Positions 18,253 through 55,045 of a DNA stretch of 59,172 nucleotides are shown piece after piece (position 1 is the stretch's first letter; every line of letters begins with the position of its first letter). Below the pieces are notes generated by a model. The model ran no database searches, was not told the DNA's origin, and was given only the letters and a program-made list of their open reading frames with translations. This DNA is from Rhodothermales bacterium (GTDB lineage: Bacteria; Bacteroidota; Rhodothermia; Rhodothermales; Bin80). The stretch lies in NCBI GenBank assembly GCA_022821875.1, contig JAJECV010000003.1, positions 1 through 59,172 on the forward strand. The letters run 5' to 3'. Position numbers and translations under genes: made by a program.

Positions 18253-21200
18253 ATGCGCAGCATTTCAGCGATACTTGCTCTTGCATGCATTGCGATGTCG
18301 GCGTTTGGGCAGAACCCTACGAATGTCTGCCCCTCCGTGTTGACTGTGCCTGCCGGTGAGTCCAGAATGATAGACTGTGACCTTGAGCCGGACATGCTTG
18401 CATATGAGTGGGAAAGTTCCAATCCATCCTGGTTGCGGTATTTGAGTGATGTCACGGAGATGTCTCCCCATTTTAACGCACCCGCAAATGTCAGCACTGC
18501 GCAAATCTTTGAGTACCGCCGGTTCGGACGTGACGAAGAGGGAACGGTTGTAAGTCATGCATCAGTATCTGTTACTGTAAACCCGGCTGGCAGCCAGTTT
18601 CTTTGCCGTTATGACGGGGGGCCGGGTTGCCCATCGCTGGATAATACTGAGCAGCCATTGCTGGATCACCGATGGGCGCCGGACGCTCCGGATCTACCTG
18701 CAGACACTGCGCCCCCCTCTTTATACTGTGACCCCCGAGTCACGGCTGAAAGTGGCACAATCGCCGAGATTCGGTGCACCGGATCGCATCCATCAGGGGG
18801 ACAGCTAACCTACAGGTCCGAATTTGACTGGCCCCCCTACAGTGAGACCAGAGTACTTGCAGATGGATTGTTTGACTACTTTATTCGTGTGCCGCTGATT
18901 GATGAACCGGCAGCGGTTCGGATCCTTGAGATTACGGCATCCGTGCCGGGCGAAGATGTACAGGTGTCTCAGAACGTAGAACTTCATATTGTGAACCGGA
19001 GTCCGGCCCTGCTCTGTGAAGACATGCTCGTACAGGAATCTGTGGAAGCCGCCTTCCCGTGCTCAATGACATCGGATCGGGAGATTGAATATCAGTTTAT
19101 TTCGAATCCACCTCTGGTACAGCGAGGGATGTACGATTACTGGCCGACCTTCTTGGTCCCGGAAGTAGACCATGACCAATCGGTTCCCGTTATTGTACGG
19201 GCCTTTGATATCAATTCGGGGCATGTGGTTGAAGCAGAGTTTGTGGTGAGAATTCAGAATGCCTCCGGCCCGATGGATTTTTCGGTTGACTGTAATCCCA
19301 CAAATTCCGAAGTATACGAGGGGGCGCCGCCCCTCATCATCACATGCACACCAATTGATAATTCATCGCCGAGCCTGGTATGGAGTTATTCGGCAGAAGG
19401 AGATACTCCATTTTCCCCCTTCCGTTACTTAGGACGATCAGAGGGCAGCTGGAGATTTGAGTTTACTGCCCCGGCCAATGTGGATGAAGACACATTTTAT
19501 GAGTACAAGTTGACCGCCACCGATCAGGCTGATGAGACCACAGGCGTGTCCGACATTGAGATTCTGGTATTAAACACACCGCAAATTACGGTTTCCTGCG
19601 AGGATGCTTATGCGCGTACCGGCGATCCACCTCTGGAACTTTCGTGTGAAGCCGGCAACTCCAGGGAACTCCCGCTGGATTATCAGTGGACCTGGAGTCC
19701 CCGAACTCCGCCGCTGCGCCTGCTGGGAGACATAGATGCGACCCCCCTATTTGACGTTCCAACCGCTGCGGAACAGCAGCAATTGAGTTTTGATTATGTC
19801 TATGATGTAACGGTTTCGGCAGCAGGTAATGCAGATGTTCCAGATCTTCCAGAGGCTTCTACGACCGTAACCGTAACCGTAGATAAAATTCTGGGGCAGC
19901 TGGGGCTGGATTGCGTCAGCCCCATTGAGGTCTACGAGGGGGATCCCGATGTTCCCATTGAGTGTTCAATTCAGGGACTCGTCACCGAAGACATAGATGT
20001 AACATGGACCTGGCAGGCACTGGGAGAAGATCGCCTCAGGGAGGAAAACGGAACGTTTATCTTTGAGACGCCGGAATCTGTCCCTGTCACGACAACCTAC
20101 AGTTATGATTTTCAGATCGACGCACCGCCCCATTATGAGGCCTCTGAGTTGGAACGGGTTGATGTGATCGTCCTGAAGAGACCGATCCTCTCACTGAATT
20201 GTCAGGACTTGACCGTGAATGTAGGAATGCCCCCGCAACCCATCCTGTGCGAAGTAAGCAACGATCAGGATGCGGAACCGGATTACATATGGCAGTGGGA
20301 TCCGACCCTGCTTCTGTCGAACACAGATACCGGCATGCCGATCTTTGCCACCCCCGCCCGGCAGCGGGCATATTCCGAAGAATATCCGTATAGCGTTTCT
20401 GTGCGCACGGAGATTTCCGATCCTGTAGAAACCACGGTTTCAGTCACCGTGATCAATCCCGACGCAGGACCATCCGAAGAGATTGCAGTCAGCACGTCAG
20501 AACTAGACCTTGGGGTCGCCGGTCCGCAGGGGCAGATCTGGCTGGATCCGGCAACGGAGCAGGTATCCGGCCTAGTCTATGAACGAGGCGGCACGCACTC
20601 CGGGCGGATGATGATTCGGGCGCAAAGTGATGTCACCGTATCCATTGAGCAGCTTCAAGCTGCCGCCCTGCGTCAGGTAGACTCGCCGGGGAATTCGGGC
20701 GGAAGACACTCCGATGTACTGACACTTACCCCCCAGTGGGCATACTCGGAGTCCTGTATCCAGTTTGCCGCCAACACGCAAGCCAGTCAAACCGTGCAGA
20801 CGAGTCTGCAGTCCGGTGATTGTCATGTGATACGAATCGGGGGGACCGTTGAACTTGAGGGGGCAGAACCGGGCAGGTATGCAGGTGAGGTTGCAGTGGT
20901 CGTTACCGTTGACGAGTTGGACCAGCTGTATTCCATTCCGGTGGTACTGACCGTGGAAGCAGAACGGCAGGTCGTTGTTCTGGGACCGGGAGGAGTCAGT
21001 CTGCAACCGGTTTCGGCAACAACGGAAGCACTGCAGTGGAACCAGGGGATCGGTATTCAGCCGCAGGTTGCAGTGCTTGGCGCTAACATGCCTTCGGGAA
21101 TCTTTACGATGACGAATCCTTCGGTTCATTCCATGGAGGTGGAGGTGTCCACTGAATTTGGATATCGGGAAACCCGGGATGCAAATCCGTTCTCGGTGCC

Positions 21201-21732
21201 GGCAACGGATGAGCTGGGGGATCTGGCGGAGCTGGTTTCTGTACATCCAAATGTACTCCTGCTGCTGCCAGGAGAAACCAGACAGGTGCGCTACACCGTA
21301 CCTGAGCAGAAATTAGCCCAAATGGAAGATCGCGGCTACGCGGCACTCTTTAATTTCACGGTTACATCCCGTGCGTACATTGATCAGAGTCAAGCCCCTG
21401 TAGCGGAACAGTCTGCGCGCGTTACATTCCAGGCTCCCGGCGTTTATATCCCGGGGCAGGGCCCCGAGCAACTTCGTGCAACCGTAGAATCACGCACGGA
21501 TCAAGGCGCAGTGATTCTGGTTGAAACGGATACATCTCCTTTTTATGGCAATGCGATGATCGTGGATGAATCCGGAAATGAACTGGGAAGGTCGGAAATT
21601 CTGGTGTACACACGCAGTCGGGTGCGTATTGATTGGAACGCTCCCCCTTCAGGTGAGTTGACACTGCGGTTTATTCCTCAGAATCCGGACCATGTTGCAC
21701 CAAGTGATCTATCTATCCCGGCGAATGATTGA
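18253..21732 (+). CDS. Giant secreted protein: Ig-like repeats, DUF4402-like subunit region and PapD-like chaperone region
   Basis: A 1,159-residue exported protein with a signal peptide (MRSISAILALACIAMSAFGQ). Residues about 25-735 hold seven repeats of roughly 100 residues, each opening with a Cys and a second Cys some 15-20 residues later (NVCPSV/IDCDL, LYCDPR/IRCTG, LLCEDM/FPCSM, VDCNPT/ITCTP, VSCEDA/LSCEA, LDCVSP/IECSI, LNCQDL/ILCEV), suggesting Ig-like domains with a disulphide. Residues about 740-905 resemble DUF4402 pilin-like proteins (STSELDLGV, WLDPATEQV, IRIGGTVEL, GRYAGEVAVVVTV). Residues about 940-1150 look like a two-domain PapD chaperone (FTMTNPSVHSMEVEVSTEFG, VSVHPNVLLLLPGETRQVRY). 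First gene of the operon. Start ATG 18253 is set by the signal peptide. Confidence 0.7.
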   Translation: MRSISAILALACIAMSAFGQNPTNVCPSVLTVPAGESRMIDCDLEPDMLAYEWESSNPSWLRYLSDVTEMSPHFNAPANVSTAQIFEYRRFGRDEEGTVVSHASVSVTVNPAGSQFLCRYDGGPGCPSLDNTEQPLLDHRWAPDAPDLPADTAPPSLYCDPRVTAESGTIAEIRCTGSHPSGGQLTYRSEFDWPPYSETRVLADGLFDYFIRVPLIDEPAAVRILEITASVPGEDVQVSQNVELHIVNRSPALLCEDMLVQESVEAAFPCSMTSDREIEYQFISNPPLVQRGMYDYWPTFLVPEVDHDQSVPVIVRAFDINSGHVVEAEFVVRIQNASGPMDFSVDCNPTNSEVYEGAPPLIITCTPIDNSSPSLVWSYSAEGDTPFSPFRYLGRSEGSWRFEFTAPANVDEDTFYEYKLTATDQADETTGVSDIEILVLNTPQITVSCEDAYARTGDPPLELSCEAGNSRELPLDYQWTWSPRTPPLRLLGDIDATPLFDVPTAAEQQQLSFDYVYDVTVSAAGNADVPDLPEASTTVTVTVDKILGQLGLDCVSPIEVYEGDPDVPIECSIQGLVTEDIDVTWTWQALGEDRLREENGTFIFETPESVPVTTTYSYDFQIDAPPHYEASELERVDVIVLKRPILSLNCQDLTVNVGMPPQPILCEVSNDQDAEPDYIWQWDPTLLLSNTDTGMPIFATPARQRAYSEEYPYSVSVRTEISDPVETTVSVTVINPDAGPSEEIAVSTSELDLGVAGPQGQIWLDPATEQVSGLVYERGGTHSGRMMIRAQSDVTVSIEQLQAAALRQVDSPGNSGGRHSDVLTLTPQWAYSESCIQFAANTQASQTVQTSLQSGDCHVIRIGGTVELEGAEPGRYAGEVAVVVTVDELDQLYSIPVVLTVEAERQVVVLGPGGVSLQPVSATTEALQWNQGIGIQPQVAVLGANMPSGIFTMTNPSVHSMEVEVSTEFGYRETRDANPFSVPATDELGDLAELVSVHPNVLLLLPGETRQVRYTVPEQKLAQMEDRGYAALFNFTVTSRAYIDQSQAPVAEQSARVTFQAPGVYIPGQGPEQLRATVESRTDQGAVILVETDTSPFYGNAMIVDESGNELGRSEILVYTRSRVRIDWNAPPSGELTLRFIPQNPDHVAPSDLSIPAND

Positions 21733-22507
21733 GTTAATGCTCTCTGATATCTCACATTGTACCCAATTCAGGCACTTCAGAGTCAGGCGCAGCCATCCAT
21801 GGACATGGGCTGGCCCCGTTGTACGTAATCTCTGTTTTGCCGGCTGGATGATGCTCCTCACGGTTCCGGTATACGGGCAGATTGCCGAGGTGACGCAACG
21901 TGTACTCCCCGTAGCGGAATTTTCCGATGTAGAGTTCATCAGTACATTTCTTGAAGAATTTTTCATCTTTCCCGAAGACCCCAATTACACCTCGGGACTT
22001 TTTTACGATATCACACAGGATGGCTTTGGAACGAATGATCTGTTAGTCCTTTATCCATCCGAGGAGCAGTTTCAACTGGGTTCTTATCTGCCGGAGCGAC
22101 TGTCCTCTGTGCTCAATACACAGGGCTTAGCTACAGACTATGAATTGTCCACCACCCGGGCACTCACGGAAGTGATTATCGCAGAGGCTGAAAATGAAAC
22201 GAATCCCAAGAAGGCCCTGGCAGGTGCACTTCTTGCATCCATACAGAACTATTATACAGAGGGTGAATTCCAGGGCTATATTTCGCAGCGGAATGAAGAT
22301 CTGAGTATCACATTCTGGGGCTACACGGAGGATACATGGACATTTACCCCCAAAGCGGCGCAATGTGTAGAGCCGCCGGACTCCGAGTCTCTGTTGATTG
22401 TGGCTCATAAGCAGCCGGAAATACGCACCTTCCTGGATATTGACGGATGCGTGATTGTAGAATCTTCCACCGCCGGGGGAGAGGTTTCCTCCCGGGTATG
22501 CAACTAA
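21725..22507 (+). CDS. Unknown exported protein of the usher/Exb operon
   Basis: A 260-residue protein with an extended N-terminus and a hydrophobic signal segment (LCFAGWMMLLTVPVYG) followed by mature sequence from about residue 52. I recognise no family. The mature part is acidic and mixed alpha/beta, with two Cys near the C-terminus (DGCVIVES, SRVCN). ATG 21725 overlaps the upstream stop (ATGATTGA), implying translational coupling. Position between the subunit-chaperone fusion and ExbD suggests a periplasmic accessory component of the same machine. Confidence 0.65.
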   Translation: MIELMLSDISHCTQFRHFRVRRSHPWTWAGPVVRNLCFAGWMMLLTVPVYGQIAEVTQRVLPVAEFSDVEFISTFLEEFFIFPEDPNYTSGLFYDITQDGFGTNDLLVLYPSEEQFQLGSYLPERLSSVLNTQGLATDYELSTTRALTEVIIAEAENETNPKKALAGALLASIQNYYTEGEFQGYISQRNEDLSITFWGYTEDTWTFTPKAAQCVEPPDSESLLIVAHKQPEIRTFLDIDGCVIVESSTAGGEVSSRVCN

Positions 22508-22513
22508 CGAATT

Positions 22514-22903
22514 ATGGACGACGATCGTAGCGATTTATTAGTGTTTATTGACCTTGCATTCGTTCTGTTAGTGGGGTTCCTGATCCTCACAGAAACGGAT
22601 CCCAGACTGAATGTGGCACTTCCGAGTGACCCCGAGACCGAATCCAATACGGACGAGAGCGGGCCAACAATTTACAACCTGTACTTCAACGGGAGCGCCC
22701 AATTTATTGTGGAAGACAGTCAAAGCACCATATGCAGTCCGGTTGGTGTCCAAAATCTCATCGAATGCATGAGACAGGTAGCAAGTGCCATGCAGACCAC
22801 GGTGTTTGTGCTTATCCCGCAGGGAAGAGCAACCGTACAGACCATGGTGTCGATTCTGGACCTGTGCTACTACAATGACTGGACCTGTACCGTAACAAAC
22901 TGA
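22514..22903 (+). CDS. ExbD/TolR-like proton-channel subunit (first copy)
   Basis: A 129-residue protein with a short cytosolic N-terminus, one transmembrane helix (LLVFIDLAFVLLVGFLIL) and a small periplasmic domain. The helix keeps the Asp that ExbD, TolR and MotB-type stators use for proton transfer (ID-x-F-x-LL pattern). The periplasmic part, ending near VSILDLCYYNDWTCTV, is compatible with the ExbD fold. Six bases after the previous stop. Works with the ExbB-like gene at the end of the operon, by inference. Confidence 0.75.
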   Translation: MDDDRSDLLVFIDLAFVLLVGFLILTETDPRLNVALPSDPETESNTDESGPTIYNLYFNGSAQFIVEDSQSTICSPVGVQNLIECMRQVASAMQTTVFVLIPQGRATVQTMVSILDLCYYNDWTCTVTN

Positions 22904-22916
22904 CGATCTGCCTGCC

Positions 22917-23972
22917 ATGGCCCATCAATTTTCTGAGGATCTAGACCATACTAGCCGCCGTATCTCCATTGGTGTCTTTGTGGTTTTGATCGGGTTTTTC
23001 GCCGTTGCGTTCCGTTTTGTACCCGTTCCCAACCGAGATGCGGTGGACGAGTCACTGGATATTCTGATGCTGGAATCCTTTATGATGGAAACAACCGCAG
23101 AAGAAGAGGCGGCAGAGGCGGAGGAAGCACCTGTCGAAGTTCAGACGGAAACCGAGGATGAAATTGAAAATTTAGATGCCCTGCTTGAAGCATTTGGGGA
23201 TTTATCTCTGTCTGAGGTTACGCCAGAAGATTTATCCACATCAGATCCTGCTGCCGGCGACCCGTTAGGGCTTCAGGCAGATTTAAATATAGATCTTGAT
23301 TTTGGATCCAGTGATCTGGGGGGATTCGGTGACGGTCGTCCAACCGATCTCAATGCAGACCTGCTTCCACAGTCTGGCGGCGGAGGGCAGAGATTAACCT
23401 TGAATCCGAATCTGGTGTCGGGATCCACTTCCGGGAATCGGCCCGGATTCCGGACCCGGGATAATGCAGGTATCGGGAACGGTGAAGACCTTTCCGTGCG
23501 TGAAACGCAGCCGGGTGATCTGTTTGATGAGATCATTGAAGAAAGGCCGGATGAGGGATTAAACCTGCTGGAGATGCAGCGCGAAGATGCGGTGGTTGCG
23601 TGGTTTCAGGCAAATGAGGGGCCTCTGGATCCAGGTGTCCGGGCATTGTTTGAAGAACAGGCATCCGGCTCCTTCACGGCAAAAGTCTTTGCCGAGATTG
23701 GGGGGCAGACGTTTCCTGTGCAGTTGATGTATTCCCAACACAGCAAGAAACTTCATATCGCCTTCAGCGAAGATAAAGATCTATTCTATTTTATAGATCC
23801 GAAACTGCGTAATATTGCAAACTATTATAAAGAAGGCGTGGTGGTACACGACGAACAAGTAAGAATTGTAATTGTGGAGAGTGAGGAACTCTCGGTTGAA
23901 AGCCCGAATGCAGTTCGGGTATACAAACAATTTGTTTCATGGTGGATAACTCAAGTCGGACAAAATAGATAG
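22917..23972 (+). CDS. TonB-like membrane-anchored periplasm-spanning protein
   Basis: A 351-residue protein with a cytosolic N-terminus, one transmembrane anchor (residues about 17-36, ISIGVFVVLIGFFAVAF), a long acidic and Gly-rich, low-complexity span (residues about 55-210, e.g. TTAEEEAAEAEEAP and stretches of DLNADL) and a compact C-terminal domain of about 130 residues. This is the topology of TonB, TolA and GspC-type transducers, though the usual Pro-Lys spacer and TonB C-terminal motif are absent. Located between two ExbD-like genes, it is the natural energy transducer to the outer membrane. Confidence 0.6.
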   Translation: MAHQFSEDLDHTSRRISIGVFVVLIGFFAVAFRFVPVPNRDAVDESLDILMLESFMMETTAEEEAAEAEEAPVEVQTETEDEIENLDALLEAFGDLSLSEVTPEDLSTSDPAAGDPLGLQADLNIDLDFGSSDLGGFGDGRPTDLNADLLPQSGGGGQRLTLNPNLVSGSTSGNRPGFRTRDNAGIGNGEDLSVRETQPGDLFDEIIEERPDEGLNLLEMQREDAVVAWFQANEGPLDPGVRALFEEQASGSFTAKVFAEIGGQTFPVQLMYSQHSKKLHIAFSEDKDLFYFIDPKLRNIANYYKEGVVVHDEQVRIVIVESEELSVESPNAVRVYKQFVSWWITQVGQNR

Positions 23973-23978
23973 AGACTC

Positions 23979-24350
23979 ATGGATGAATCAATGGTAGATA
24001 TCGTTCTTATTCTTCTGGCAGCGCTGGTCGCAGTGGCCGTCATACCGGAATTTGACATAGAACTGCCGGTAAGTCAGGAGATTGATCAGGACGGAACGGT
24101 GTTGCGCCCCCTTCAGATCTCAATTAAAGATACGGGCCAGCTGTACCAGTTAGATGGCTCAAATCAGGAACAACCCCTCTATTATGAGCAGTTTTACGAA
24201 ATGCTGACCACTACGGAGCCGACCCGGGTCGTGGAGGTTCATGCAGACGAGGGAGCCCCCGCAATCTATCTGCTTGAGATCAATCGAGTCATTCAGAAAG
24301 CAGGCCGGAATTCGGTGTTTTTAGTGAAAGGCGGAGGAGGAGGGGCTTAA
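23979..24350 (+). CDS. ExbD/TolR-like proton-channel subunit (second copy)
   Basis: A 123-residue protein with one N-terminal transmembrane helix (SMVDIVLILLAALVAVAVI) retaining the functional Asp, followed by a periplasmic domain (FDIELPVSQE ... VVEVHADEGAPAIYLLEINRVIQKAG) typical of ExbD. It ends in a Gly-rich tail. Two different ExbD-like subunits in one operon parallel the ExbD1/ExbD2 heteromers described for some TonB systems. Its stop is immediately followed by the next ATG. Confidence 0.78.
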   Translation: MDESMVDIVLILLAALVAVAVIPEFDIELPVSQEIDQDGTVLRPLQISIKDTGQLYQLDGSNQEQPLYYEQFYEMLTTTEPTRVVEVHADEGAPAIYLLEINRVIQKAGRNSVFLVKGGGGGA

Positions 24351-25913
24351 ATGATGAAAGGTTTTATGCGATTAGCGCTGCCGCTCTTACTGGTTGTTTT
24401 TCTGTTCGGATGTGCACGGACTGCACCGATTGTTGAAGAGTTGCCCCCTGAACCGGAAGTGATTGAACCGGACTTTGTTACGCCTCCGCTGCCTGGCATA
24501 GATACGCTGATCATTCAGCAGGTGATTGATGACTTTGACAGCACCTTCGTCCAAGCGGAGGCCGAGGCCGAGGCGCAGGAGAAATTTCTGGAAGGCCAAC
24601 GACTGGTTATACATGCAGAGAGTCTGCTCACGGTGATTGGCGGCCCCTCCGTCTTTGACGGAGCGTCCACCTCGTCCGAGGTGGATACCGTTGCCTTTCA
24701 GGAAGCGGTTCAGGGAGCCCGGAGTGCGTTGGCGCAGGCTTCACAGGCACAGGCGGCACAGGACAGTGCACGGGCACAACTGCTGTTAGCCACTGCACAG
24801 GAGAGGCTTGAAGAAGCGGTGTCAATTAACCCGCGGCACGAAGAATCCCAGTACCAGCTGGCGCAGGTGTATTCTATTCGTGCGAACTATTTCCGGCAGC
24901 AGGCCGACCGGGAGCAGTCCCTGGAAATTCTTCGCGGACTGGTGGCACTTCGGGCCAATGAACATTCACTATGGGCCGAAATCTCGCTTACGCTGGATAA
25001 TCTTGAGCGCTATCCGCATGCAGCCGTGATGTGGCTTCGCGCGGCAGAAACCGTTCTGGATGATTCAAGACTTTCCTTTGATGATGCCCCGGTGGATACA
25101 AGTTCAGTCTTTACCTACAGCGTGCGGGCATATCGCTCCTTTGTTAACAGCCGGAGCGGTGAAGGGGTAGAGCGTTCCCTGACGCAGGCCCTGCAGTATC
25201 AATCCAACCCCGAGCAGTATGACTTCATCAAACAGGAACTGATCTGGTCGCAGTGGGACCACCTGAATCTGGGAAGCCGGATTGTCTTTGACAGTTTACG
25301 CCAGGCCGCGACCGAAAACCCCCTCTCAACGCTCACCGGTCTCGGTGCATTGATTCCAAGGCTGGAACGACCGGCCGCAATCTGGGAAGCCAGTTATAAC
25401 CATGCCATTCTTTCTTATGATAATGGATTCCAGGATCATGCACTGGACACCCTGAAAATTTTATGGGGACGCGTGAGCAATCTTGATTCAAGCGCAAACA
25501 GAGAGCATGTGCTGCATTCAAGTGGGGAACTGATCATGGGGGCACTGCCCTATGTCACATTCCAGGAAGATATTCGAGCGGCCTACGGATCTGTTCTCTT
25601 TGAACGGGGCCTCTCTCATGTTCAGGATGGTAATTCCGGGATGGCATTCACGTATTTCATGCAGGTTGCGGACATTGAAAGTGAATACACTGGAAAGGCC
25701 TACATTGAGGCCATAAAACTGGCCCGCTACAATCCGGAACAGGCATTGAAAATTGAATCCAGGGTGGAGGAGATTTTCGATGAACTGGAACGGGAAGATC
25801 AACTGGCATACCTGCGTGAAATTGGGAATCTCTACCGAAGACTTGGTGAAAACGAGAAGACCAATACGCTTCTGATGCGCTTCCGTACGATTCGTGACCA
25901 GACCGTCAACTGA
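24351..25913 (+). CDS. TPR lipoprotein of the usher/Exb operon
   Basis: A 520-residue lipoprotein with signal peptide and lipobox (LLLVVFLFGC) and a Pro/Glu-rich linker. Helical TPR-like repeats follow from about residue 115 (RLEEAVSINPRHEESQYQLAQVYS, EHSLWAEISLTLDNLERYPHAAVMWLRA). An Ala/Gln/Glu-rich coiled segment precedes them. Probably anchored to the outer membrane with its repeats in the periplasm, as a scaffold between the usher-like barrel and the inner-membrane motor. Function inferred only from topology and position. Confidence 0.7.
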   Translation: MMKGFMRLALPLLLVVFLFGCARTAPIVEELPPEPEVIEPDFVTPPLPGIDTLIIQQVIDDFDSTFVQAEAEAEAQEKFLEGQRLVIHAESLLTVIGGPSVFDGASTSSEVDTVAFQEAVQGARSALAQASQAQAAQDSARAQLLLATAQERLEEAVSINPRHEESQYQLAQVYSIRANYFRQQADREQSLEILRGLVALRANEHSLWAEISLTLDNLERYPHAAVMWLRAAETVLDDSRLSFDDAPVDTSSVFTYSVRAYRSFVNSRSGEGVERSLTQALQYQSNPEQYDFIKQELIWSQWDHLNLGSRIVFDSLRQAATENPLSTLTGLGALIPRLERPAAIWEASYNHAILSYDNGFQDHALDTLKILWGRVSNLDSSANREHVLHSSGELIMGALPYVTFQEDIRAAYGSVLFERGLSHVQDGNSGMAFTYFMQVADIESEYTGKAYIEAIKLARYNPEQALKIESRVEEIFDELEREDQLAYLREIGNLYRRLGENEKTNTLLMRFRTIRDQTVN

Positions 25914-25933
25914 TCACCGGATAACGTATATTC

Positions 25934-28480
25934 ATGGCGAAAATGCAGATTCAGGGCTTCTCGCTGAGATCTCTTTGGGTGCTACTCCCCGGGATATTCG
26001 CGATTTCCGGTGTCGTTGCCCAAGAGGAGCAGCCGCAGCGTTTTCGAGTCATGCAGGAATCTCCCTGGGTGGTCAGTCCCATGTCCGTTGCCTCGCTCTC
26101 CATGCGCCCTGTACAGGCTTACTGGGATCCACAGGAGGGAAACTACTTTATTGATCTGATTGCATTTCTTGAAGTGATGCAGATGTCCGTGGAGATTGAC
26201 GGTCTGGTCGTTCGGACGATCTACCGTGACACGGTCCATGAAACAGATTTTCGTCAGGGCATCGTTACGCGGTATACCGAGGAAAATATTCAGCGCTCCG
26301 ACTCACTGGAAGCCGACGGCTATGTCTATGCGGGCGGGTTTGACACCGATTTTTTTGATGCGGGAGAAGGCTTCCTCCTGACACCCCCGAATCTGCAAAA
26401 AATCTTCCCAGATGGCACCCTGTCCTATGATCAGAGCAAATTACTGATCCGGCTCTCGCAGGAATTATTTGCCGAATCGGAGTCCACTTTCCGTGCACGG
26501 GGATCCGCCCCCACACTTGGACTTGGTCCTATGTTATATGGCCGGCACCGGCGTTTTCTCGGAGGTTCCCAGATTGGATACCGACTCAACCGGATCCAGC
26601 GGTCCGGAAATGATGTCAACTATTCGGGATTCCTGAACGGGCGGGCTAGCGCCCTCTGGGGACAGATTCGCTCGGAGGGAATGATCACCTATACTGATGA
26701 TCATGATTTCCGTACCTCCTTCGGACAGTTGAACTATTTGATTGATCTGCCCCGATCCTCCTATGTTACGCAGATCGGTGTGGGCCGTACGAGAGTGGAT
26801 CAGTGGCCGGTACGGCAGAATTATGATGGAATGTGGATGAGCAACCGCCCGCTTTCAACCCGCCACCAACAGCGTGAAGCTGAAATCAGCGGCATTGCAG
26901 AACCAAACGCACTGGTATCTGCACTGGTGGGGGGCGTGGTAGCGGATCGTGTCCAGGCAGATGGGCAGGGACGTTACCGGTTAACGATTCCCGCCTACTA
27001 CGGCACCTCACGCGCAGAACTGGAGATTGTCCCTGCAGGCGGCGGAACCCCGATCAGGGAAACCCGCTACCTCTTTATCACCGAAGACCTAGTCCCGGAA
27101 AACAGGCTGTACTGGGATCTTCAAGGTGGTCGGGACCGATATGACGAAACCGCTTACGGGCATGCACAGGCCAGTTACGGGATCTCTACAAGTCTGACCG
27201 CACTCGGCAGTTACACGCTGGCCGACACACTGCAGACCGCAACCCTGGGCCTTGTTACAAACTATGCGCAGTCCATGATGGTCAGTGCCGAGGTCTCCTA
27301 TCCTGACTTTGCGACCCGGGCCACCTTGCAGATGTTTCGCAATCAGTTCCAGCTTCAGGGAGAGGCATCCTTTGCCGCAGAGTCAGGGTTCACCTTCTAT
27401 AGACAGCGTCTGATCGGCCGGGTCGGATGGAATTCCCGGCGACTGAGCACCTTTGTGTACGGAAGCCGCTTTGAATCCTTCAGCGGCAGTGAATCCATGC
27501 AGCTGGATGGTTCTGCAACCCTCCGGCTCTCCCGTCGCACCAATCTGGTCGTTGCCGCCGGTCCCCGATCTACCAGACTTGACCCCGATGCTCCAATGGA
27601 TTCACGCATGCACTGGCGAAGTTCACTCACTCGCTATGCAACCGTGGGGGCCGTACGCGGTCGAGTTGGATTCCAGGGATATGGAGGACAGTACGAGGAT
27701 ATTGATTTTGCGGGAGGAACGATTTATGCATCGTACCGGTCGGTTTCGTTTGGTGCCCGGATTGGCTATGACTTCCCGGCAGAAGGGATGAATGCTTCGT
27801 TATCCATACGCATGAATGCACCCTGGGCCAGTTTCTCAAACCACTCGTCCTTTGAAGTTGACAATCCGTACAATCAACAGAATGTATACGGATCGGTGAC
27901 ACTTGGCCGTGACCTTCATTTTTCCAGGCACCCGCAGGTCTGGAGCAGTGCACAGCTTCGCCCCTTTATTGACCGAAACCGTGACGGCCGGAAAGATCCG
28001 GGCGAAGTTCATCTGGACGGATTGGACATCAACGTTGTCCGTGCCCGTACAGAATCCATTGAATCCGGCGGGATCCAGGCAGATTTCCTGGCCCCGAGCA
28101 CCCTTTATCAGGTCGTCATTGATCCCCGTTCTCTCCGAGGGCCGGAACTGGATCTGCCAACGGGAACGACCTTCAGTTTCATTTCTGATCCAGGCACCGT
28201 AAAGCATATTGACATTCCCGTCCATGAAAACACGGTCGTTGAAGGAAAGATTGAAAACCTGCCCCTGAGTTCCCCGACCCTGGCTGTAGTGGTCTTTTAT
28301 CAGGGAGACGAGGAAGTTGCCCGGTCTGCAGTTTCGCAACAAGGCCTGTTTACCGTGTTGCTGCCGCCGGGCCCCTATCGCCTTGAAGTTCATGATTTGC
28401 TGGGTAGCGAGGATTTAAGTTCCTATACGCAATCCTTGAACATACAGGCCGTTAACACACAACAACTTGAGATCCGTTGA
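25934..28480 (+). CDS. Usher-like outer-membrane beta-barrel protein
   Basis: An 848-residue exported protein. After a signal peptide (ending GVVA) it has an N-terminal periplasmic region with repeated x-LIAFLEVMQMSVEIDG and KLLIRLSQELF motifs, then a long run of alternating amphipathic strands (residues about 190-660) with usher-type text: RETRYLFITEDLVPENRLYWDLQGG, YGISTSLTALGSYTLADTLQTATLGL, FARLTLQ-like elements. The C-terminal part has FIDRNRDGRKDPGEVHLDGL, a Ca-binding-like Sdr/usher plug-type motif, and Ig-like domains. It resembles FimD/PapC and CS1-type ushers, which secrete and polymerise pilus subunits. Evidence is pattern-based; a generic barrel remains possible. Confidence 0.62.
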   Translation: MAKMQIQGFSLRSLWVLLPGIFAISGVVAQEEQPQRFRVMQESPWVVSPMSVASLSMRPVQAYWDPQEGNYFIDLIAFLEVMQMSVEIDGLVVRTIYRDTVHETDFRQGIVTRYTEENIQRSDSLEADGYVYAGGFDTDFFDAGEGFLLTPPNLQKIFPDGTLSYDQSKLLIRLSQELFAESESTFRARGSAPTLGLGPMLYGRHRRFLGGSQIGYRLNRIQRSGNDVNYSGFLNGRASALWGQIRSEGMITYTDDHDFRTSFGQLNYLIDLPRSSYVTQIGVGRTRVDQWPVRQNYDGMWMSNRPLSTRHQQREAEISGIAEPNALVSALVGGVVADRVQADGQGRYRLTIPAYYGTSRAELEIVPAGGGTPIRETRYLFITEDLVPENRLYWDLQGGRDRYDETAYGHAQASYGISTSLTALGSYTLADTLQTATLGLVTNYAQSMMVSAEVSYPDFATRATLQMFRNQFQLQGEASFAAESGFTFYRQRLIGRVGWNSRRLSTFVYGSRFESFSGSESMQLDGSATLRLSRRTNLVVAAGPRSTRLDPDAPMDSRMHWRSSLTRYATVGAVRGRVGFQGYGGQYEDIDFAGGTIYASYRSVSFGARIGYDFPAEGMNASLSIRMNAPWASFSNHSSFEVDNPYNQQNVYGSVTLGRDLHFSRHPQVWSSAQLRPFIDRNRDGRKDPGEVHLDGLDINVVRARTESIESGGIQADFLAPSTLYQVVIDPRSLRGPELDLPTGTTFSFISDPGTVKHIDIPVHENTVVEGKIENLPLSSPTLAVVVFYQGDEEVARSAVSQQGLFTVLLPPGPYRLEVHDLLGSEDLSSYTQSLNIQAVNTQQLEIR

Positions 28481-29195
28481 TCCTTATTCACTTTACTTAC
28501 TAATGCTAATACATTTCATTGCTTTACAAGCTGCATCCGCCACGCTGGTGCAAGACCAGACCGCTCTGAGCAACACGATTCCCACATCACTGTGGGACAT
28601 GATCGCCTATGCCCGCGGGTTTGAATGGCCGCTAGGGATATTATTCGTTCTTGGTCTATTCGTCCTTACCTCTGCGTATGTCCGCCAGTGGCGTCAGTGG
28701 GGCGGAAGTCAGGGAATGTTGCAGATCGACCCGGACAATATTTCTGCAGACAGTTTTTCCCAGGCCATTCTTGAAGCCGAAACCAAACCAGGAAATCCCT
28801 ACTTTATTGCAGGCAGCAAGATTGTTGAGGAGTTCAGACGCGGTGGCACGGCACCGAGCATGGTGGATTACGCGTTCCGTTACATTGATTTGGATCGTGA
28901 GAGGTATGAGCAGACGGACCGATACATCAGCGGTGTCGTCTATCTTGCGCTCAGTCTCGGATTACTTGGAACCCTGCTTGGGATCTTTGTATTATTCATG
29001 TCCGGAGAACGTCACGAGGCATCCGACCTCGTTGGTTTGGGGATCGCGGTGGTTTCCACGATGTTGGCACTTGTGGTTCGCCTGATTCTGTGGCCGCTGA
29101 ACATCTTTTTACAGGCAACCCTCAGAAAACGATACAATACCCTGCGAAAATGGACCATTGCCTTTTCGTATGCCATCTCATCCAACCAGAGATAG
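28467..29195 (+). CDS. MotA/TolQ/ExbB-family proton-channel protein
   Basis: A 242-residue inner-membrane protein with three transmembrane helices: residues about 53-70 (WPLGILFVLGLFVLTSAYV), 155-178 (YLALSLGLLGTLLGIFVLFM) and 190-215 (LGIAVVSTMLALVVRLILWPL). The GLLGTLLGIF motif and the Thr in the third helix are typical of ExbB/TolQ. It pairs with ExbD-like subunits to use the proton-motive force. It overlaps the usher stop by 14 bases and is the last gene of the operon. A start at 28503 (MLIHFIALQ) is also possible. Confidence 0.85.
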   Translation: MRSVDPYSLYLLMLIHFIALQAASATLVQDQTALSNTIPTSLWDMIAYARGFEWPLGILFVLGLFVLTSAYVRQWRQWGGSQGMLQIDPDNISADSFSQAILEAETKPGNPYFIAGSKIVEEFRRGGTAPSMVDYAFRYIDLDRERYEQTDRYISGVVYLALSLGLLGTLLGIFVLFMSGERHEASDLVGLGIAVVSTMLALVVRLILWPLNIFLQATLRKRYNTLRKWTIAFSYAISSNQR

Positions 29196-29413: not shown

Positions 29414-32400
29414 TCATACGGATACAATCACGGTAGCAATCCTGGAGGTGACGCGGGCGGGATCCTGCGGGTTATGGGCCCGCTGCTCTTCGTAGATTGT
29501 CTGCATTTCATTTCGCAGACGCTCCGCCGACTCAAGCCTCCGCATTGCTTTGCCAGCCACGACCTTGCAGGAGGCATATTCGGGGACTTGGCCTGCTCTG
29601 ATTTTCTTCCGAATACGTATTTTTTCTTCCTTCCAATCGGGGTTCAGTAAGCGAGTCCAGTGCTCTATCAGTCGTTCCAGCGCCTGCAGACTCAACTCAC
29701 CAAACAATTTTTCGGCCAGCTGATCATCTCCTTCCTCGTCCGGTCTCAAAACAACTGCCAGTGATTCCAGAGGAGCAAGCATTCGTTCCGGTCGCAGATC
29801 CCATTCCCGGAACATGGGCAAATGATCCGTAAGTTGGTCAAGTGCCCGCTCCATTGCCTCGCTGTCCGGAGAATCCCTGTGCCGGCCAAGTTGCACAGTC
29901 CGTGCGTATGACTTGCGAAGCAGGTGTGCGCAGCGAATTTGATTTCGCACCACCTCATTGGAGTGTATTGCCAGGAGTCGCGGAGTAGAAACGTCACCGG
30001 TTTTGATGCCTCCCATCCCTTTGAGATGAAGGATCGTCGTCTTCTCACCCGATGGAAGCACCGCCAATTCTGCTCCCCAGACTCCCTGGATTCCATCCCG
30101 GTTTCTTGTCAGATCCGCCACCCTTGCATATGCTGCGGGACTCAGTTTATTACGAATTTCTGTCAGGATATCGTAATAGTTGTTCTGGCGCGGTTTTCGG
30201 GCATCCTGGATAAAATTCAGTGCATCACCAAAATTATGTGCCGTGACATCTGCCCCCTCGGCTTCTCTGGCAGACCCGGATTGCGGGCGGGCCGCCAGTG
30301 AACGGTTGATCTCTATCCGTCTGGCAGCATTGCGATCTGATGTCAGCGGGGGCGTGGGGATATCTACCAGATGATAGTGGATATCATCTACGGGGCTATT
30401 GATGCGGTCAATCCGGCCGAGCCCCTGGATCAGATGCACCATGCTGGATGCCACACTGATACTCACTAGTGTGTCACAGCTCTGCATATTTACCCCCTCC
30501 GCCATCTGATAGGTCATGAAAACAGAGACGCTTCCACTGGTACGTTTCTTCCCATCTTCCGAAAACAGGTCTTCAATCATGCTTCCGCTCCGTGAGCGTG
30601 TGTAACTTGGCGCCGTCACATTCAAAACCGCCTGGAGGGCCTCCCGCTCACCTGCTCCCCCTACATCCTCCCTCTTTGAAGCGATCACATGAACACTGTC
30701 GTGACATCCTTCCTGCGACAGGATTTCTGCGTAGACCAGAAGGGGCAGTACACGTTCCGCCAGAAACACCACGCGGGCATGTTTTTTCTGAATATCCAGC
30801 AGGGCCTTTACACATTTACCGTGCAGGATTTCCATGACCGGAGATGCCAGCAATCTGGTGAGGCTTTCGCATTCCGGGGTTGGTTTCCGGACGGGATCAT
30901 CTTCGGGAAAAATTTCAATCTGCCCGGGAGGCGGCGGCTTCCGGCGGTTGGCTTTCTTTTCAATTTTCCGAAGGTTTTTACCGATCTTTCCGTGCTGCAT
31001 TTCATACCGCGCCACGAGCGGGCTCATGCGCAGGAGGCTGATCAGGTTGCGGGCGTGAAGTGCACTGTCCCGCACCGGCTGGCGATTCAGTTCACCAAAT
31101 CTTGAGTACTGTCGGACCAGCTTTGGAGCATCTCCGGTAATGGCTGCAAGATGCTGTACGATCTGTGCTATTTTCACCTCCTGAGTGCTGGTGATCTGTG
31201 TAGCAGGATGGCGGCCATGGTTGGTGATATTCGGATACAGGCCACACCTGCCTGTGGTCTGTTTTGTTCTTGTACCGATGTCATCCCGTGAGCACAGTAC
31301 GACATACGGAGCAATCAGGTGAACCAGCTGCTCACGGATCTTTGCCAGCTTATCATTCTCCAGAATCGGATCCAGCAGCACCTCAAATACATCGGGACTC
31401 ATGGAAAGCCCCTGGCTCTTTCTGGAAAGTTTTCGGATCTGGCTGACGAAGTCATCCGGCATGAAAAGGGAAGCACGCTTTTCCTGGAAATGGACAAGGC
31501 TGTCCACATCGTGATTCCCCAACTGTGTCGCAGAGAGGAACACGGTCCAGGCCGGAGGTGCGGTTTCCATGGCTTCGGCCCGCTGTGATGTATCGGTCAG
31601 CCCCGGTGCCACCTGATGACTTTCGTCGACCACATGCACCGCGGTTCGTTCGAGCGCTTTGGGATTGGCCTTCAGTTCGGTATGGGGGATGACTTTGTAT
31701 CCATCGTCATTCTTTTTCCAGCGCTTTGCGATCCGGGGTGGAGAGATCACCATGGCTCCGCGCCGATTCATCCTGCCTGCACTGCTGCCTGGGACGATAT
31801 GATGGTAGGTTTCAGGGAGAACATAGGCCAGGTACTTCCCGACCGGTGTTTTTCCCGACCCTGCCGGAGCGCAGATAAAGGCAACCCCATGTTCATAAAT
31901 GGTTCCGGCAGCCTGATAGACGAGGTCAGCCTGATAGGGGAAAAGTTTTTCTACCCCCGAAAGCCTGTGCTCATCAAGCAGGTCGCTCCGCCAAAATGGA
32001 AACCCGGTCTGTTCTGCTATAGAGCGGGATACGGCATCCTCGGGGGACACCGTTCGCAAGAGGGTCTTCAGAATGGCAAGCACCTCCTGATTGCAGTCCA
32101 CGCTTGCTTCCTGGATCCTCTTCGCAAAGTCTGCCCGCTCTCTGGCCGCAGCCACGACCTCCGCAGAGCGCGAATCATATCTCAAGTCATCTGCGGATTC
32201 AATGTTATAGCGAAGCCCCGAGTAGGAGAAATTGGCACTCCCCTGGATCACCCCCAGCTCACTTGAAATGAGCTTGGCATGCATACGGCCCTGCCCTCTC
32301 CAGCCAAGTTTCTGCCGCGCCAGATCACCGTCAAATCCACGGATATCAATCTCGTTACGTGCAATCGCCTCAATCGCTCTCACCGCCCTCAGATCGGAGG

Positions 32401-32722
32401 AATCGTCCACCTTCAGGCCATGGTGCTGCATAAAGTGCCGGCGAACCGCTTCAGGAACGGAGTATCCTCCTGAAAAATGTGTTCGGCTGCCCGTATCTAC
32501 TCCATAGACCAACTGGATCCGGGGGCGCGGATGACGTTTCGGATCCTGAAATACTTCCGATAACTCGTCCATGATGATGGACAGTGATGACAGCAGGTCG
32601 TGGAAGCCGGTAACGATCAAACATTCTCCCGTATGCAGGTGCGGGCGCACCAGATCAATAACCGATTTATCAAGGTTGTCTGCGCGGGGAATGCGGGATG
32701 GCCGGGAGGAGAAAAATCTCAT
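29414..32722 (-). CDS. PLD-like nuclease fused to SF2/DEAD-type helicase
   Basis: An 1,102-residue cytosolic protein. Residues about 20-205 form a phospholipase-D-like domain with one HxK motif and Asn-containing tail (RMHAKLISSE ... GSANFSYSG). The helicase follows: Walker A CAPAGSGKTPVGK at about residue 285, DESH (VHVVDESHQVAP) at about 370, motif III LSATQ, and a C-terminal half with MTYQMAEGVNMQSCDTLV and HLIQGLGRIDRINSP (motif VI, arginine fingers). PLD-helicase fusions are known in restriction-like and DISARM/phage-defence contexts. The gene is isolated from the defence island at the right, so its role is inferred. Confidence 0.75.
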   Translation of the reverse strand: MRFFSSRPSRIPRADNLDKSVIDLVRPHLHTGECLIVTGFHDLLSSLSIIMDELSEVFQDPKRHPRPRIQLVYGVDTGSRTHFSGGYSVPEAVRRHFMQHHGLKVDDSSDLRAVRAIEAIARNEIDIRGFDGDLARQKLGWRGQGRMHAKLISSELGVIQGSANFSYSGLRYNIESADDLRYDSRSAEVVAAARERADFAKRIQEASVDCNQEVLAILKTLLRTVSPEDAVSRSIAEQTGFPFWRSDLLDEHRLSGVEKLFPYQADLVYQAAGTIYEHGVAFICAPAGSGKTPVGKYLAYVLPETYHHIVPGSSAGRMNRRGAMVISPPRIAKRWKKNDDGYKVIPHTELKANPKALERTAVHVVDESHQVAPGLTDTSQRAEAMETAPPAWTVFLSATQLGNHDVDSLVHFQEKRASLFMPDDFVSQIRKLSRKSQGLSMSPDVFEVLLDPILENDKLAKIREQLVHLIAPYVVLCSRDDIGTRTKQTTGRCGLYPNITNHGRHPATQITSTQEVKIAQIVQHLAAITGDAPKLVRQYSRFGELNRQPVRDSALHARNLISLLRMSPLVARYEMQHGKIGKNLRKIEKKANRRKPPPPGQIEIFPEDDPVRKPTPECESLTRLLASPVMEILHGKCVKALLDIQKKHARVVFLAERVLPLLVYAEILSQEGCHDSVHVIASKREDVGGAGEREALQAVLNVTAPSYTRSRSGSMIEDLFSEDGKKRTSGSVSVFMTYQMAEGVNMQSCDTLVSISVASSMVHLIQGLGRIDRINSPVDDIHYHLVDIPTPPLTSDRNAARRIEINRSLAARPQSGSAREAEGADVTAHNFGDALNFIQDARKPRQNNYYDILTEIRNKLSPAAYARVADLTRNRDGIQGVWGAELAVLPSGEKTTILHLKGMGGIKTGDVSTPRLLAIHSNEVVRNQIRCAHLLRKSYARTVQLGRHRDSPDSEAMERALDQLTDHLPMFREWDLRPERMLAPLESLAVVLRPDEEGDDQLAEKLFGELSLQALERLIEHWTRLLNPDWKEEKIRIRKKIRAGQVPEYASCKVVAGKAMRRLESAERLRNEMQTIYEEQRAHNPQDPARVTSRIATVIVSV

Positions 32723-42798: not shown

Positions 42799-43175
42799 AA
42801 CATTGATTTATCCCGCGGACAAATTCGGGAACTGAAGCCGAATGGTTCCAGTCATTCCGAGACTCGGCGGCGGCACCGCCCCCGATTATCGCTCCATATC
42901 CATGACGACCAGGACGCAGTTCCGAGTGTGGGCATCCAGTTCCAGACAAACAATTTCGTGCATGTGAGTAAAGATTTGATGAAAGATAATTGACAATGCA
43001 AAACGTGCCCTTCTTTTCGTCAGCCCCCTACCAAAATTTCCAAAGCCCACCAAATCTATTAAACCATTCAGTTTCGCCATCGTATCATGCCGCAAATCCC
43101 TGCCGACTTTGCTTAGTTTGCTTAGGAGGTTTCCAAGTCACAATAAGTTTGATCGGCGTTTTAAAGGTAAACATC
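42799..43175. other. Intergenic region at left border of the defence island
   Basis: 377 bases between the start of the anchor-B pseudogene and the divergent ATPase gene. Open frames in both directions show no family features. Promoters of both genes presumably lie here. Confidence 0.45.
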
Positions 43176-44570
43176 ATGAAAATAACCATACAGAACCTGG
43201 GTGTTCTAAAAAAGGCGGCATTTGAGCTCGGTGACCTGACCTTGATTTGTGGATCAAACAACACGGGCAAGACATATGCGACTTATGCCCTGTTTGGTTT
43301 TCTACTTAACGGGAAGAGATTCATGAGAACCGAAGTTTCTAATCAAGAAATAAATGATCTCATGAATAACGGTGCAACGCAGATTGATATTGCAAGACAC
43401 GCCAAAGGGGCGAAGAATATTCTTTCACAGAGCTGCCAGACATACACTCAGTATTTGCCTCGAATCTTCGCGTCCAATCCGAAACATTTTGAGGAAGCCC
43501 AGTTCAAGGCGGACTTGGAACTGGATTTGGAATCAATCCTACCCTCCCCTTTCGAACGAAAAATAAGGTCTAGAAAAAGCGAAATTCTCTCATTTAGAAA
43601 ACCTAAGGGGAGCCGTGATTTGGTGGTTTCCCTGTCGGCGGAAACCGAAAAAATCGGGCTCCCCACAGAGATCATTAAGGAGGAAATCTCGGAGGTCATT
43701 AACGAAATAATCTTCGGACAGTATTTCCCTACTCCCTTTATCGCTAGCGCGGAGCGTACCGGTGTTGCAATATTCAGCAAGGAGCTTGATTTTGCCAGAA
43801 ATCGGCTACTTGAGGAAATGGCCCGATCAGACAAGGATATTGACCCAATGGAGTTGCTTTTTAAATCCTATAATGATTATGCTTTGCCGGTGAAGGCAAA
43901 CGTAGATTTTACGCGCAGGGGTGCAGATATCCGCAAGGAAGATAGCTTCATTGCTAAGGAACATTCTCCGGTTCTGGAGGAATTCTCCGATATTATTGGC
44001 GGTGAATATATTTCAGGGAGCGACAACTCAATTTATTTCAAGCCTTCGCGCAAACGCCTCAAGCTGACTATGGCAGAAAGTTCGAGTGCAGTGCGCTCTA
44101 TGCTGGATATTGGTTCTTATTTGCGTCACATTGCAAAACCAGGTGACTTGCTGATGATAGACGAACCGGAATTGAGTCTGCATCCTGAAAATCAGCGCCG
44201 AGTTGCCCGGCTTTTCGCTCGGCTGATAAATCTTGGAATTCGAGTTTTCATAACCACTCACAGTGACTATATCATCAAGGAGTTGAACACATTGATTATG
44301 CTTAATCAAGATAAGCCCTATCTAAAGCGAATTGCCGAGAGAGAGGGGTATCGGAACGAAGAACTTGTTGACCCCGATAGAGTAGAAGTTTATATAGCAG
44401 AAAAAGCTTTGATGAAAACAAAGAGCAACCATAAAAGGAGAAGCCTGCACTGGACCCTAAGGGAGGCGGAAGTAAGCCATGAACAAGGAATTGATGCCCG
44501 CAGTTTTGACGAGACCATAGATAAGATGAACGAGATTCAGGATGCCATTATATGGGGGGATGGAGAATGA
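43176..44570 (+). CDS. AAA ATPase of a two-gene ATPase/nuclease system
   Basis: A 464-residue cytosolic ABC/SMC-like ATPase of the AAA_15/AAA_21 type: it starts MKITIQNLGVLKKAAFELGDLTLICGSNNTGKT (Walker A GSNNTGKT, residues 26-33), with a long coiled and helical insert, a signature-like AESSSAVRSMLDIGSYL, Walker B LLMIDEPELSLHPE and the H-loop FITTHSDYI. Similar ATPases act in OLD, Septu, PARIS and AbiL-type defence. ATG 43176 is supported by AAAGGT nine bases upstream. The stop overlaps the next ATG (ATGA). Confidence 0.85.
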   Translation: MKITIQNLGVLKKAAFELGDLTLICGSNNTGKTYATYALFGFLLNGKRFMRTEVSNQEINDLMNNGATQIDIARHAKGAKNILSQSCQTYTQYLPRIFASNPKHFEEAQFKADLELDLESILPSPFERKIRSRKSEILSFRKPKGSRDLVVSLSAETEKIGLPTEIIKEEISEVINEIIFGQYFPTPFIASAERTGVAIFSKELDFARNRLLEEMARSDKDIDPMELLFKSYNDYALPVKANVDFTRRGADIRKEDSFIAKEHSPVLEEFSDIIGGEYISGSDNSIYFKPSRKRLKLTMAESSSAVRSMLDIGSYLRHIAKPGDLLMIDEPELSLHPENQRRVARLFARLINLGIRVFITTHSDYIIKELNTLIMLNQDKPYLKRIAEREGYRNEELVDPDRVEVYIAEKALMKTKSNHKRRSLHWTLREAEVSHEQGIDARSFDETIDKMNEIQDAIIWGDGE

Positions 44571-45154
44571 ATTCAGACCTTGATATCTTGCGAGAACTGA
44601 TCAAAGACGAAGCATTGGTGACCACCAAGGAGGGTTGGAATGGCAAGAATTTTCTCGAACTGAAAGAACGTGGAGGAAGGAATACATCCGAGTACAAAAT
44701 AAAGATACGCAACATACCCGAAGATACCATCGCAATCAAATCTGATATGTTTCCTCCCCCAAGAAACGTTTTTAGAGGCAACAGAGGCGAATGCAAGAGG
44801 GCGGATTTTGTTATTATCGCCAGGGATGGGGAAAGAAATTGGATAATTTATATCGAAATGAAGTGCGGTAAGTATGGTCAAGAGCGACATATAAAACAAC
44901 AGCTTCAGGGATCTAGATGTTTTGTTGATTACTGCCGCATAGTTGCCCGAACGTTTTGGAGGAAACCAGGATTTCTTGAAGAGGGGGATTATCAACAGCG
45001 ATATGTTAGTGTGAAAAACATTGGTATGGACAAAAGGCCATCAAGGACAATCAGAAAACCGTCCCTACACGACTGTCCTGAAAACATGCTTAAAATCAGT
45101 GCGCCTCGTTCAAAGGGTATCTGGTTTAAAGAATTGGTAGGGGCGGCAAATTAG
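44567..45154 (+). CDS. PD-(D/E)XK nuclease-like partner of the ATPase
   Basis: A 195-residue protein with a plausible restriction-like active site: Asp80 in CKRADFVIIA and Glu97-x-Lys99 in YIEMKCGKYG, followed by a Gln-containing helix (KQQLQGSRCFVDYC). The motif spacing fits a PD-(D/E)XK core. Translationally coupled to the ATPase (ATGA), so the two likely form a complex in which ATP hydrolysis gates the nuclease. The pair is not one I can assign to a named defence system: it differs from PtuAB (HNH), AriAB and Gabija (Toprim). Confidence 0.65.
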   Translation: MNSDLDILRELIKDEALVTTKEGWNGKNFLELKERGGRNTSEYKIKIRNIPEDTIAIKSDMFPPPRNVFRGNRGECKRADFVIIARDGERNWIIYIEMKCGKYGQERHIKQQLQGSRCFVDYCRIVARTFWRKPGFLEEGDYQQRYVSVKNIGMDKRPSRTIRKPSLHDCPENMLKISAPRSKGIWFKELVGAAN

Positions 45155-45202
45155 ATAAATGTGTATGCTATGATACACATGGACTCTGGTCGCATAACGA
45201 CA

Positions 45203-45588
45203 TTAGTCTAACTGCAAGTTATTGAGATTCCTCTCATAGATATTATTGCGGGGGTATGCCTGCGTGACAGGCTGCCTTTCAGACACCCCTGCGCCGTACT
45301 CCTCCCACGTCACGCCGTCCACTCCGGGGGCCGCATCACGCTTAATCACGCAATACGCCGCCTTCAGAGATTCCTCGTTGATATGGTGGTGCAACGTTGT
45401 AAGTTTCTCCTTTGGATTCCGCTCCACATACTGCCGTAGCCACTCCTTCCGTTGGTGCACACGCACCCAATTCTGTGCTTGGTGTGTGGGTCGGTCGTTG
45501 TGGCTTCCCCTAGGGTGAAGGCCTTCGCGCCCCATGCTCCGCCGGTTGCCCGTTCCCCTCCTAAATTAAGACTTTTGAGCGACCGCAA
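45203..45588 (-). pseudogene. Group II intron reverse transcriptase/maturase remnant (N-terminus only)
   Basis: The minus-strand reading contains the standard start of bacterial group II intron-encoded proteins: ATGGAWG-type leader, GLHPRGSHNDRPTHQAQNWVRVHQRKEWLRQYVERN, then LTTLHHHINEESLKAAYCVIKRDAAPGVDGVTWEEY. It ends at 45203 after about 110 residues, well before the RT catalytic YADD. The leader is in another frame. No domain V was seen. It marks past intron insertion between two defence modules. Confidence 0.75.
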
Positions 45589-45662
45589 AGAATAAAGTTA
45601 TTATCGTTAGACAGCGGGGAGCAATTATTTTCCCAGAAAGCCTCAAATTACTCGGAATATCG

Positions 45663-45670
45663 TATCTTTG
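45663..45670 (+). promoter_or_regulatory. Candidate -7 promoter box before hamA-like gene
   Basis: TATCTTTG, matching TAnnTTTG, ends 26 bases before the ATG, a good position for a short leader. The surrounding cgtatctttgc is also found at 18072-18082. No TTTG is seen at -33. Confidence 0.4.
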
Positions 45671-45696
45671 CGAACTGAGACAGGGAACGTCCAACC

Positions 45697-49676: not shown

Positions 49677-50046
49677 ACGGTAGGTTTCAAGTACAGAGTG
49701 CAACAGAATATACAGTTCTGGTGTGTGTTGGATTACTATTCCGATGAAAGCAGTCACTGATTGCTTTGTCTGTGACACTCACAATAAGAAGTCCTGTTAC
49801 AAAATCCTCGAACCAACCCCCGCGAAGCAGCAATGGAAATGGGGGCGATCAAGGTGGGTAACATCAATCTGATTACCCGGGCAACATCAATCTGAATCTA
49901 CACACATTCTACGGGGATAAAAAATTCACTGCATCTCAATAACATCAATCAGTTTTCTTACGAGAACCCGTACAAGGCATCCCTAGCACAGCAAGGATCT
50001 AATTCTTGATTCCCCTCACCTATCTGATCTTGCGCCGTATCACGAA
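49677..50046. other. Non-coding gap with short direct repeats
   Basis: 370 bases after the helicase gene. AACATCAATCTGA occurs twice about 22 bases apart (around 49859 and 49881) and a shorter AACATCAATCAG near 49941. No gene is supported. Repeats are too few and close for a CRISPR array. Confidence 0.45.
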
Positions 50047-50538: not shown

Positions 50539-50554
50539 AAGATAGGATTACCAT

Positions 50555-51396: not shown

Positions 51397-51588
51397 CTAC
51401 CCAGATTTGATCTTCGGAGTTCTGCCGCTGCGCAGAAATTCCCGGCGCATATCCTCACGTATTGCCTCCCCGCCGTATTTTGGATTGGTTACGGGTTTAT
51501 CTAGAATTTCGTAGGCTTTGCCTGAGCGGTGATGTGGAGTTGAATGACTGGTCGATTTCATGCGAGAATTATTGTGGTTAAATTTCAT
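51397..51588 (-). CDS. Possible small gene coupled to the EcoRV-like endonuclease
   Basis: A 63-residue basic, polar reading frame (MKFNHNNSRMKSTSHSTPHH, then RSGKAYEILDKPVTNPKYGGEAIREDMRREFLRSG). Its ATG overlaps the endonuclease stop (ATGAAATTTAA). No family recognised. The overlap favours a real gene, the odd composition argues for caution. Confidence 0.4.
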   Translation of the reverse strand: MKFNHNNSRMKSTSHSTPHHRSGKAYEILDKPVTNPKYGGEAIREDMRREFLRSGRTPKIKSG

Positions 51589-53140: not shown

Positions 53141-53150
53141 GACTGCACCA

Positions 53151-55042: not shown

Positions 55043-55045
55043 TTT

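Follow-up and report, generated by a model that had tools for sequence, protein, structure and literature searches.

Eight co-directional genes of a Rhodothermales metagenome-assembled genome (MAG) may encode a surface fibre system that derives from the chaperone-usher pathway and has a dedicated motor driven by the proton-motive force (PMF), which would perform mechanical work on a fibre anchored at an outer-membrane usher. The genes occupy positions 18253–29195 of the 59,172-nucleotide stretch of DNA analyzed here (the window) and, in the list of open reading frames (ORFs), are separated by gaps of 0–20 bp or overlap slightly. We give this reading about an even chance of being correct; its basis is homology, gene order and conservation, from which we infer force transfer, export and movement. 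It is supported by the identification of the usher, chaperone and pilin families, by the retained motor residues, and by linkage of usher and motor at 34 of 36 usher loci across two layouts and two families. Further support comes from homologous ushers coupled to FliF-FliG, MotA and MotB, many of them in genomes without flagellin. An earlier note on this DNA had proposed a PMF-driven surface-fibre or secretion system, which is still the best reading of the evidence, at interpretative strength. All eight ORFs are as that note described them:

18253..21732, + strand: gene A, secreted protein with a signal peptide, repeats of about 100 residues resembling immunoglobulin (Ig) domains with paired cysteines, then pilin-like and PapD-like domains (ORF; layout conserved in window-type loci)
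20452..20970, + strand: DUF4402-like pilin domain of gene A; the free DUF4402 pilins of type II loci are its homologues
20971..21729, + strand: PapD-like chaperone domain, C-terminus of gene A, aligning with free chaperones that precede the usher; the family matches FimC
21692..22507, + strand: gene B, secreted protein of unassigned fold, start codon uncertain (alignment and distribution)
22514..22903, + strand: gene C, ExbD (PF02472, 28.4 bits)
22917..23972, + strand: gene D, TonB-shaped protein and presumed transducer, with a single membrane helix at the N-terminus, then a linker and a conserved C-terminal domain (alignment)
23979..24350, + strand: gene E, second ExbD/TolR (PF02472, 30.1 bits)
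24351..25913, + strand: gene F, tetratricopeptide repeat (TPR) lipoprotein with lipobox LFGC (sequence; sub-threshold TPR matches in Pfam; kept in the operon)
25934..28480, + strand: gene G, outer-membrane usher with barrel, plug and C-terminal domains (hhalign against K-12 ushers)
28467..29195, + strand: gene H, ExbB (PF01618, 29.1 bits), TTG start, 14-bp overlap with gene G

Identity of the usher, motor and fibre genes

For the identification of the usher-related genes, seven ushers, nine chaperones and ten pilins of E. coli K-12 served as yardsticks. As a single query sequence, the window usher hit no usher entry in either Pfam or the PDB; ushers were matched only through profiles and relatives. 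A hidden Markov model of the K-12 ushers, run against 2,649 ORFs of the relatives' loci, placed the window usher family at all ten top ranks. In profile-profile comparison, this family matched the seven K-12 ushers at 98.9% (E 2.4e-17, 533 columns), and the wider usher family matched E. coli ushers at 99.2% (hhalign; E 2.5e-19, 550 columns), the alignment running collinearly through barrel and plug into the C-terminal domain. The Pfam Usher model likewise matches wider-family members (up to 6.3e-8), while Pfam matches to CS1/TcfC-type chaperone-usher systems were weak. With the identical usher query, hhalign returned 0.1% for each of the controls FhuA, FepA, CirA, BtuB and LptD, compared with 99.2% for ushers, which rules out a TonB-dependent receptor or LptD as the identity of the barrel. 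The AlphaFold model of the usher was too poor for use (predicted local distance difference test, pLDDT, 25.6), the only partner sequences being 99% and 96% identical. Judged from these profiles, gene G is a true usher homologous to FimD/PapC, and the usher-like barrel of the earlier note thereby stands.

ExbB and both ExbD proteins exceed their Pfam cut-offs (22.9 bits for PF01618 and 25.4 bits for PF02472), and their families match E. coli ExbB (gene H, 92.9%), ExbD (gene C, 90.3%) and TolR (gene E, 75.6%). In the alignments, all 14 ExbD sequences keep the Asp of the helix, and the ExbB core GLLGTLxGI does not vary either, which agrees with the earlier identification of an ExbB and two ExbDs that keep their functional residues. 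This genome contains four MotA/ExbB-family genes, two of which adjoin its two ushers. Protein D combines a variable linker with a conserved periplasmic C-terminal domain, and by its sequence it is TonB-like in layout only; we presume a transducer role because of this layout and because it occurs together with the motor in complete loci. Gene B accompanies the motor module in every complete locus. For the five window genes other than ExbB and the two ExbDs, Pfam gave nothing decisive.

For gene A, a start at 18253 is plausible because it yields a signal peptide; the longest ORF begins at 18190. Its last 250 residues align with free proteins of about 257–330 aa that lie directly upstream of the usher in relatives. 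This chaperone family matches FimC in hhalign (90.2%, E 1.6e-6) with silent controls, and its commonest Pfam match is PapD_N, weak in all cases. The AlphaFold model of the chaperone domain was too poor to confirm the fold (pLDDT 49.1); a Foldseek search with it gave generic multi-Ig matches only (TM ~0.2) and was not used. The 170 residues upstream of the chaperone domain are homologous to small secreted proteins of type II loci that match DUF4402 (up to 5.9e-10), while the window domain itself reaches an E-value of only 0.037. Searched against the FimA family, the DUF4402-like subunits gave no match. The rest of gene A is the Ig-like repeat array. The order of Ig array, pilin domain and chaperone is constant in the window-type loci with gene A and recurs in independent genomes; where whole, gene A measures 973–2246 aa in these loci. 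Both the pilin-like and the PapD-like assignment of the earlier note are thus supported via relatives, whereas the fusion of chaperone and pilin had been overlooked. As far as domain order can tell, gene A resembles a two-domain tip adhesin with a built-in chaperone, consisting of an N-terminal Ig stalk and a C-terminal pilin domain. Since the chaperone is fused and type I operons contain no pilin gene besides gene A, the fibre may stay docked at the usher.

Conservation of the operon and related loci

All 16 genomes of the family contain the usher, as do five genomes from one further family of this order. At 34 of the 36 usher loci from these two families, ExbB lies in the operon, and the remaining motor genes are there too wherever the contig is long enough. 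In the tree, the ushers with a linked motor group as a single clade with a Shimodaira-Hasegawa-like approximate likelihood ratio test (SH-aLRT) support of 100. Two layouts occur. Type I, that of the window, has the order A, B, ExbD, D, ExbD, F, usher, ExbB, with A relocated beside the usher in some genomes. Type II, which the earlier note had overlooked, runs B, two to four pilins, chaperone, usher, ExbB, two ExbDs, D and F, often with an extra pilin after the usher; here, the pilins are free and of DUF4402 type, and the chaperone is also free. The eight genes are thus conserved together, and neither of the two outcomes that the earlier note named as refuting its reading was observed. A chance neighbourhood is ruled out by the 34 of 36 loci with ExbB, and an assembly artefact by the layout being common to independent genomes. 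In locus L037 (935-10227), genes A, B, D and the usher are kept, and both ExbDs, the TPR gene and ExbB are lost. Genome G010 carries four near-identical window-type operons (L045–L048), each with an Ig-repeat/leucine-rich-repeat protein of 1490–1678 aa whose end lies 10 bp upstream of gene B.

Homologous pilin-chaperone-usher operons also occur in other families of the class, and in many of them a FliF-FliG fusion of 510–735 aa comes next (the two members scanned match FliG_C, FliG_M and, weakly, the FliF C-terminus). Downstream of the fusion lie a TPR lipoprotein and, in most cases, MotA and a MotB that has an OmpA domain. Usher loci of this type are L097 11502-15772, L102 11589-16535, L124–L133, L091, L092, L098 and L104. 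Among the 21 searched genomes with a relative of the rotor protein, 13 contain no flagellin, including two single-contig genomes (G056, G108). Within this group, ushers have thus become coupled to two kinds of ion motor. The coupling of homologous ushers to a flagellar-type motor, which the earlier note had overlooked, is possibly the stronger finding of the two. The tree mixes motor-linked and motor-free ushers, and the number of origins of the flagellar-type coupling can therefore not be read from it. Some ushers that have no motor linked to them are unusually long (1157–1466 aa; L093, L096, L099, L100, L103), and some wider-family members contain SPOR domains; in ushers linked to the FliG-type motor, the C-terminus bears a TPR stretch (L091, L102, L124).

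The module of ExbB, ExbD(s), D, F and B also exists without an usher (L114–L122), behind a PorP/SprF-like protein (PF11751, best match 2e-6) and a large surface protein, which in the one member scanned has FG-GAP, CARDB and a CHU_C sorting domain. The module therefore appears to serve outer-membrane barrels that carry surface proteins. Its occurrence without an usher, together with the two usher loci without the module, would also fit an ExbB/ExbD set with a separate function in the envelope (Tol-Pal-like or uptake) that is merely co-transcribed with usher genes. In the contexts examined, though, the module is paired with an outer-membrane barrel accompanied by a surface protein and not with a nutrient receptor or tolB/pal, and the genes are tightly spaced, with the linkage kept across two gene orders and two families. 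We regard such an independent module as very improbable.

In the remainder of the window, positions 42990-55840 hold a defence island (PADLOC) with a PDC-M47 pair, a PDC-M23 pair (helicase), a type II restriction-modification pair and a PDC-M24B-like gene. A 1102-aa protein (29414-32722) weakly matches PLD-like and helicase families and nothing in PADLOC; ORFs of similar size flank several related operons (L036, L040, L043). A viral contig scan gave no matches.

Comparison with known systems and proposed function

With chaperone-usher pili of the E. coli Fim type, the window system shares a homologous usher with plug and C-terminal domain, a PapD-like chaperone and small Ig-like subunits, and the type II loci share the gene order pilin-chaperone-usher. 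It differs by the dedicated PMF motor in the operon, by the fusion of chaperone and pilin domain in type I, by DUF4402-type subunits with no detectable relation to FimA, and by its chaperone anchor (see below). PMF motors acting at the outer membrane have precedents in Ton, Tol, Agl-Glt and SiiAB. The Ton and Tol systems have homologues of ExbB/TolQ and ExbD/TolR in common with the operon, but here the partner is an usher rather than a receptor or Pal, and protein D shows no TonB/TolA homology. The motor of the Agl-Glt gliding machinery of Myxococcus xanthus consists of one ExbB-type protein and two of the ExbD/TolR type, and the machinery further includes a membrane transducer, a TPR envelope protein and proteins of the outer membrane (PMC3169522). 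Compared by parts lists only, it thus shares motor composition, transducer, TPR protein and outer-membrane partner with the window, whereas GltG carries a genuine TonB motif together with an FHA domain, and Agl-Glt contains no usher, chaperone or pilin (PMC3169522). Where the module occurs without an usher, it adjoins a PorP/SprF-like barrel protein and a surface protein with CHU_C sorting domain; such a pairing is characteristic of gliding adhesins, as with SprB and SprF (PMC9127263). In contrast to type IX/gliding adhesins, the motor here is ExbB/ExbD-like and not GldL/GldM (GldL/GldM were not searched for), and the window has an usher instead of PorP/SprF.

A further comparison concerns SiiAB of Salmonella, a Mot/Exb/Tol proton channel tied to the multi-Ig adhesin SiiE, the loss of which leaves secretion intact (PMC12607715). 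By analogy, proton flow could regulate retention, release or activity of an adhesin and neither move nor export it; gene A is likewise multi-Ig, and its built-in chaperone could hold it. SiiE is secreted by a type I system with an ATP-binding cassette transporter, and SiiAB-SiiE includes no usher or chaperone (PMC12607715). A TPR lipoprotein, a second ExbD and a B-like partner are also missing there, and the type II operons look like multi-subunit fibres, which makes adhesin control of this kind improbable.

In the powered-fibre reading, ExbB and the two ExbDs would turn or pull protein D, and via protein D, the TPR lipoprotein F and protein B the force would reach the usher. Gene A would be threaded outward through the usher and stay docked, giving a single-protein fibre on a powered gate, and the power would most likely serve to move, tension or turn the anchored fibre rather than export alone. 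We favour mechanical work because both motors and the PorP/SprF variant share force on a barrel-held surface structure. Alternatively, the motor could serve export only, opening the usher plug or driving the long Ig arrays through the pore with no later role. The location of the motor genes in an assembly operon, the usher plug, which TonB receptors also have, and gene A relatives of up to 2246 aa argue for this. Against it stand the homologous ushers of the same phylum without a linked motor and the classical assembly process, which is driven by the energy of folded subunits. The FliG-type rotor of the sister systems is likewise hard to account for by export; FliF-FliG, MotA and MotB are torque parts for which we know of no export role. 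We consider export alone rather unlikely.

Several observations weigh against a fibre under mechanical load. In the stretches read, none of the more distant ushers of the phylum has a motor linked to it, and the two exceptional loci without motor, L037 and L159, indicate that an usher can persist motor-free; since their genomes (G006, G003) each carry another, motor-bearing copy, these loci may be decaying or served in trans. Type II loci with several pilins could make ordinary fibres. The residues at the FimC anchor positions R8 and K112 are not conserved in the chaperone alignment, which is weak there, and the chaperone may thus work non-canonically. Protein D matched TonB and TolA at 0.2–0.4% only and had no Pfam match, and its assignment to the TonB family in the earlier note is not supported, as the topology alone is TonB-like.

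Extended to the whole class, ushers might have become the outer-membrane bearing of motor-driven fibres, with an ExbBD-type motor in one lineage and a FliF-FliG/MotAB rotor in another, so that a pilus or adhesin is actively rotated or pulled. We put this forward tentatively; if true, it would constitute a new type of motility or force organelle. In the open-licence PMC text, which as the only literature covered is weak evidence, we found no article linking a motor to a chaperone-usher system and none mentioning DUF4402; the gene set suggests a type of powered surface fibre that this literature does not describe.

Classical chaperone-usher assembly requires no periplasmic energy source. A dedicated and conserved proton motor in the operon challenges this energy-free picture, or else the usher was recruited into a powered machine. 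The natural fusion of chaperone and pilin offers a simple test case for donor-strand exchange, and homologous ushers with two ion motors provide a testable system for how inner-membrane force reaches an outer-membrane channel.

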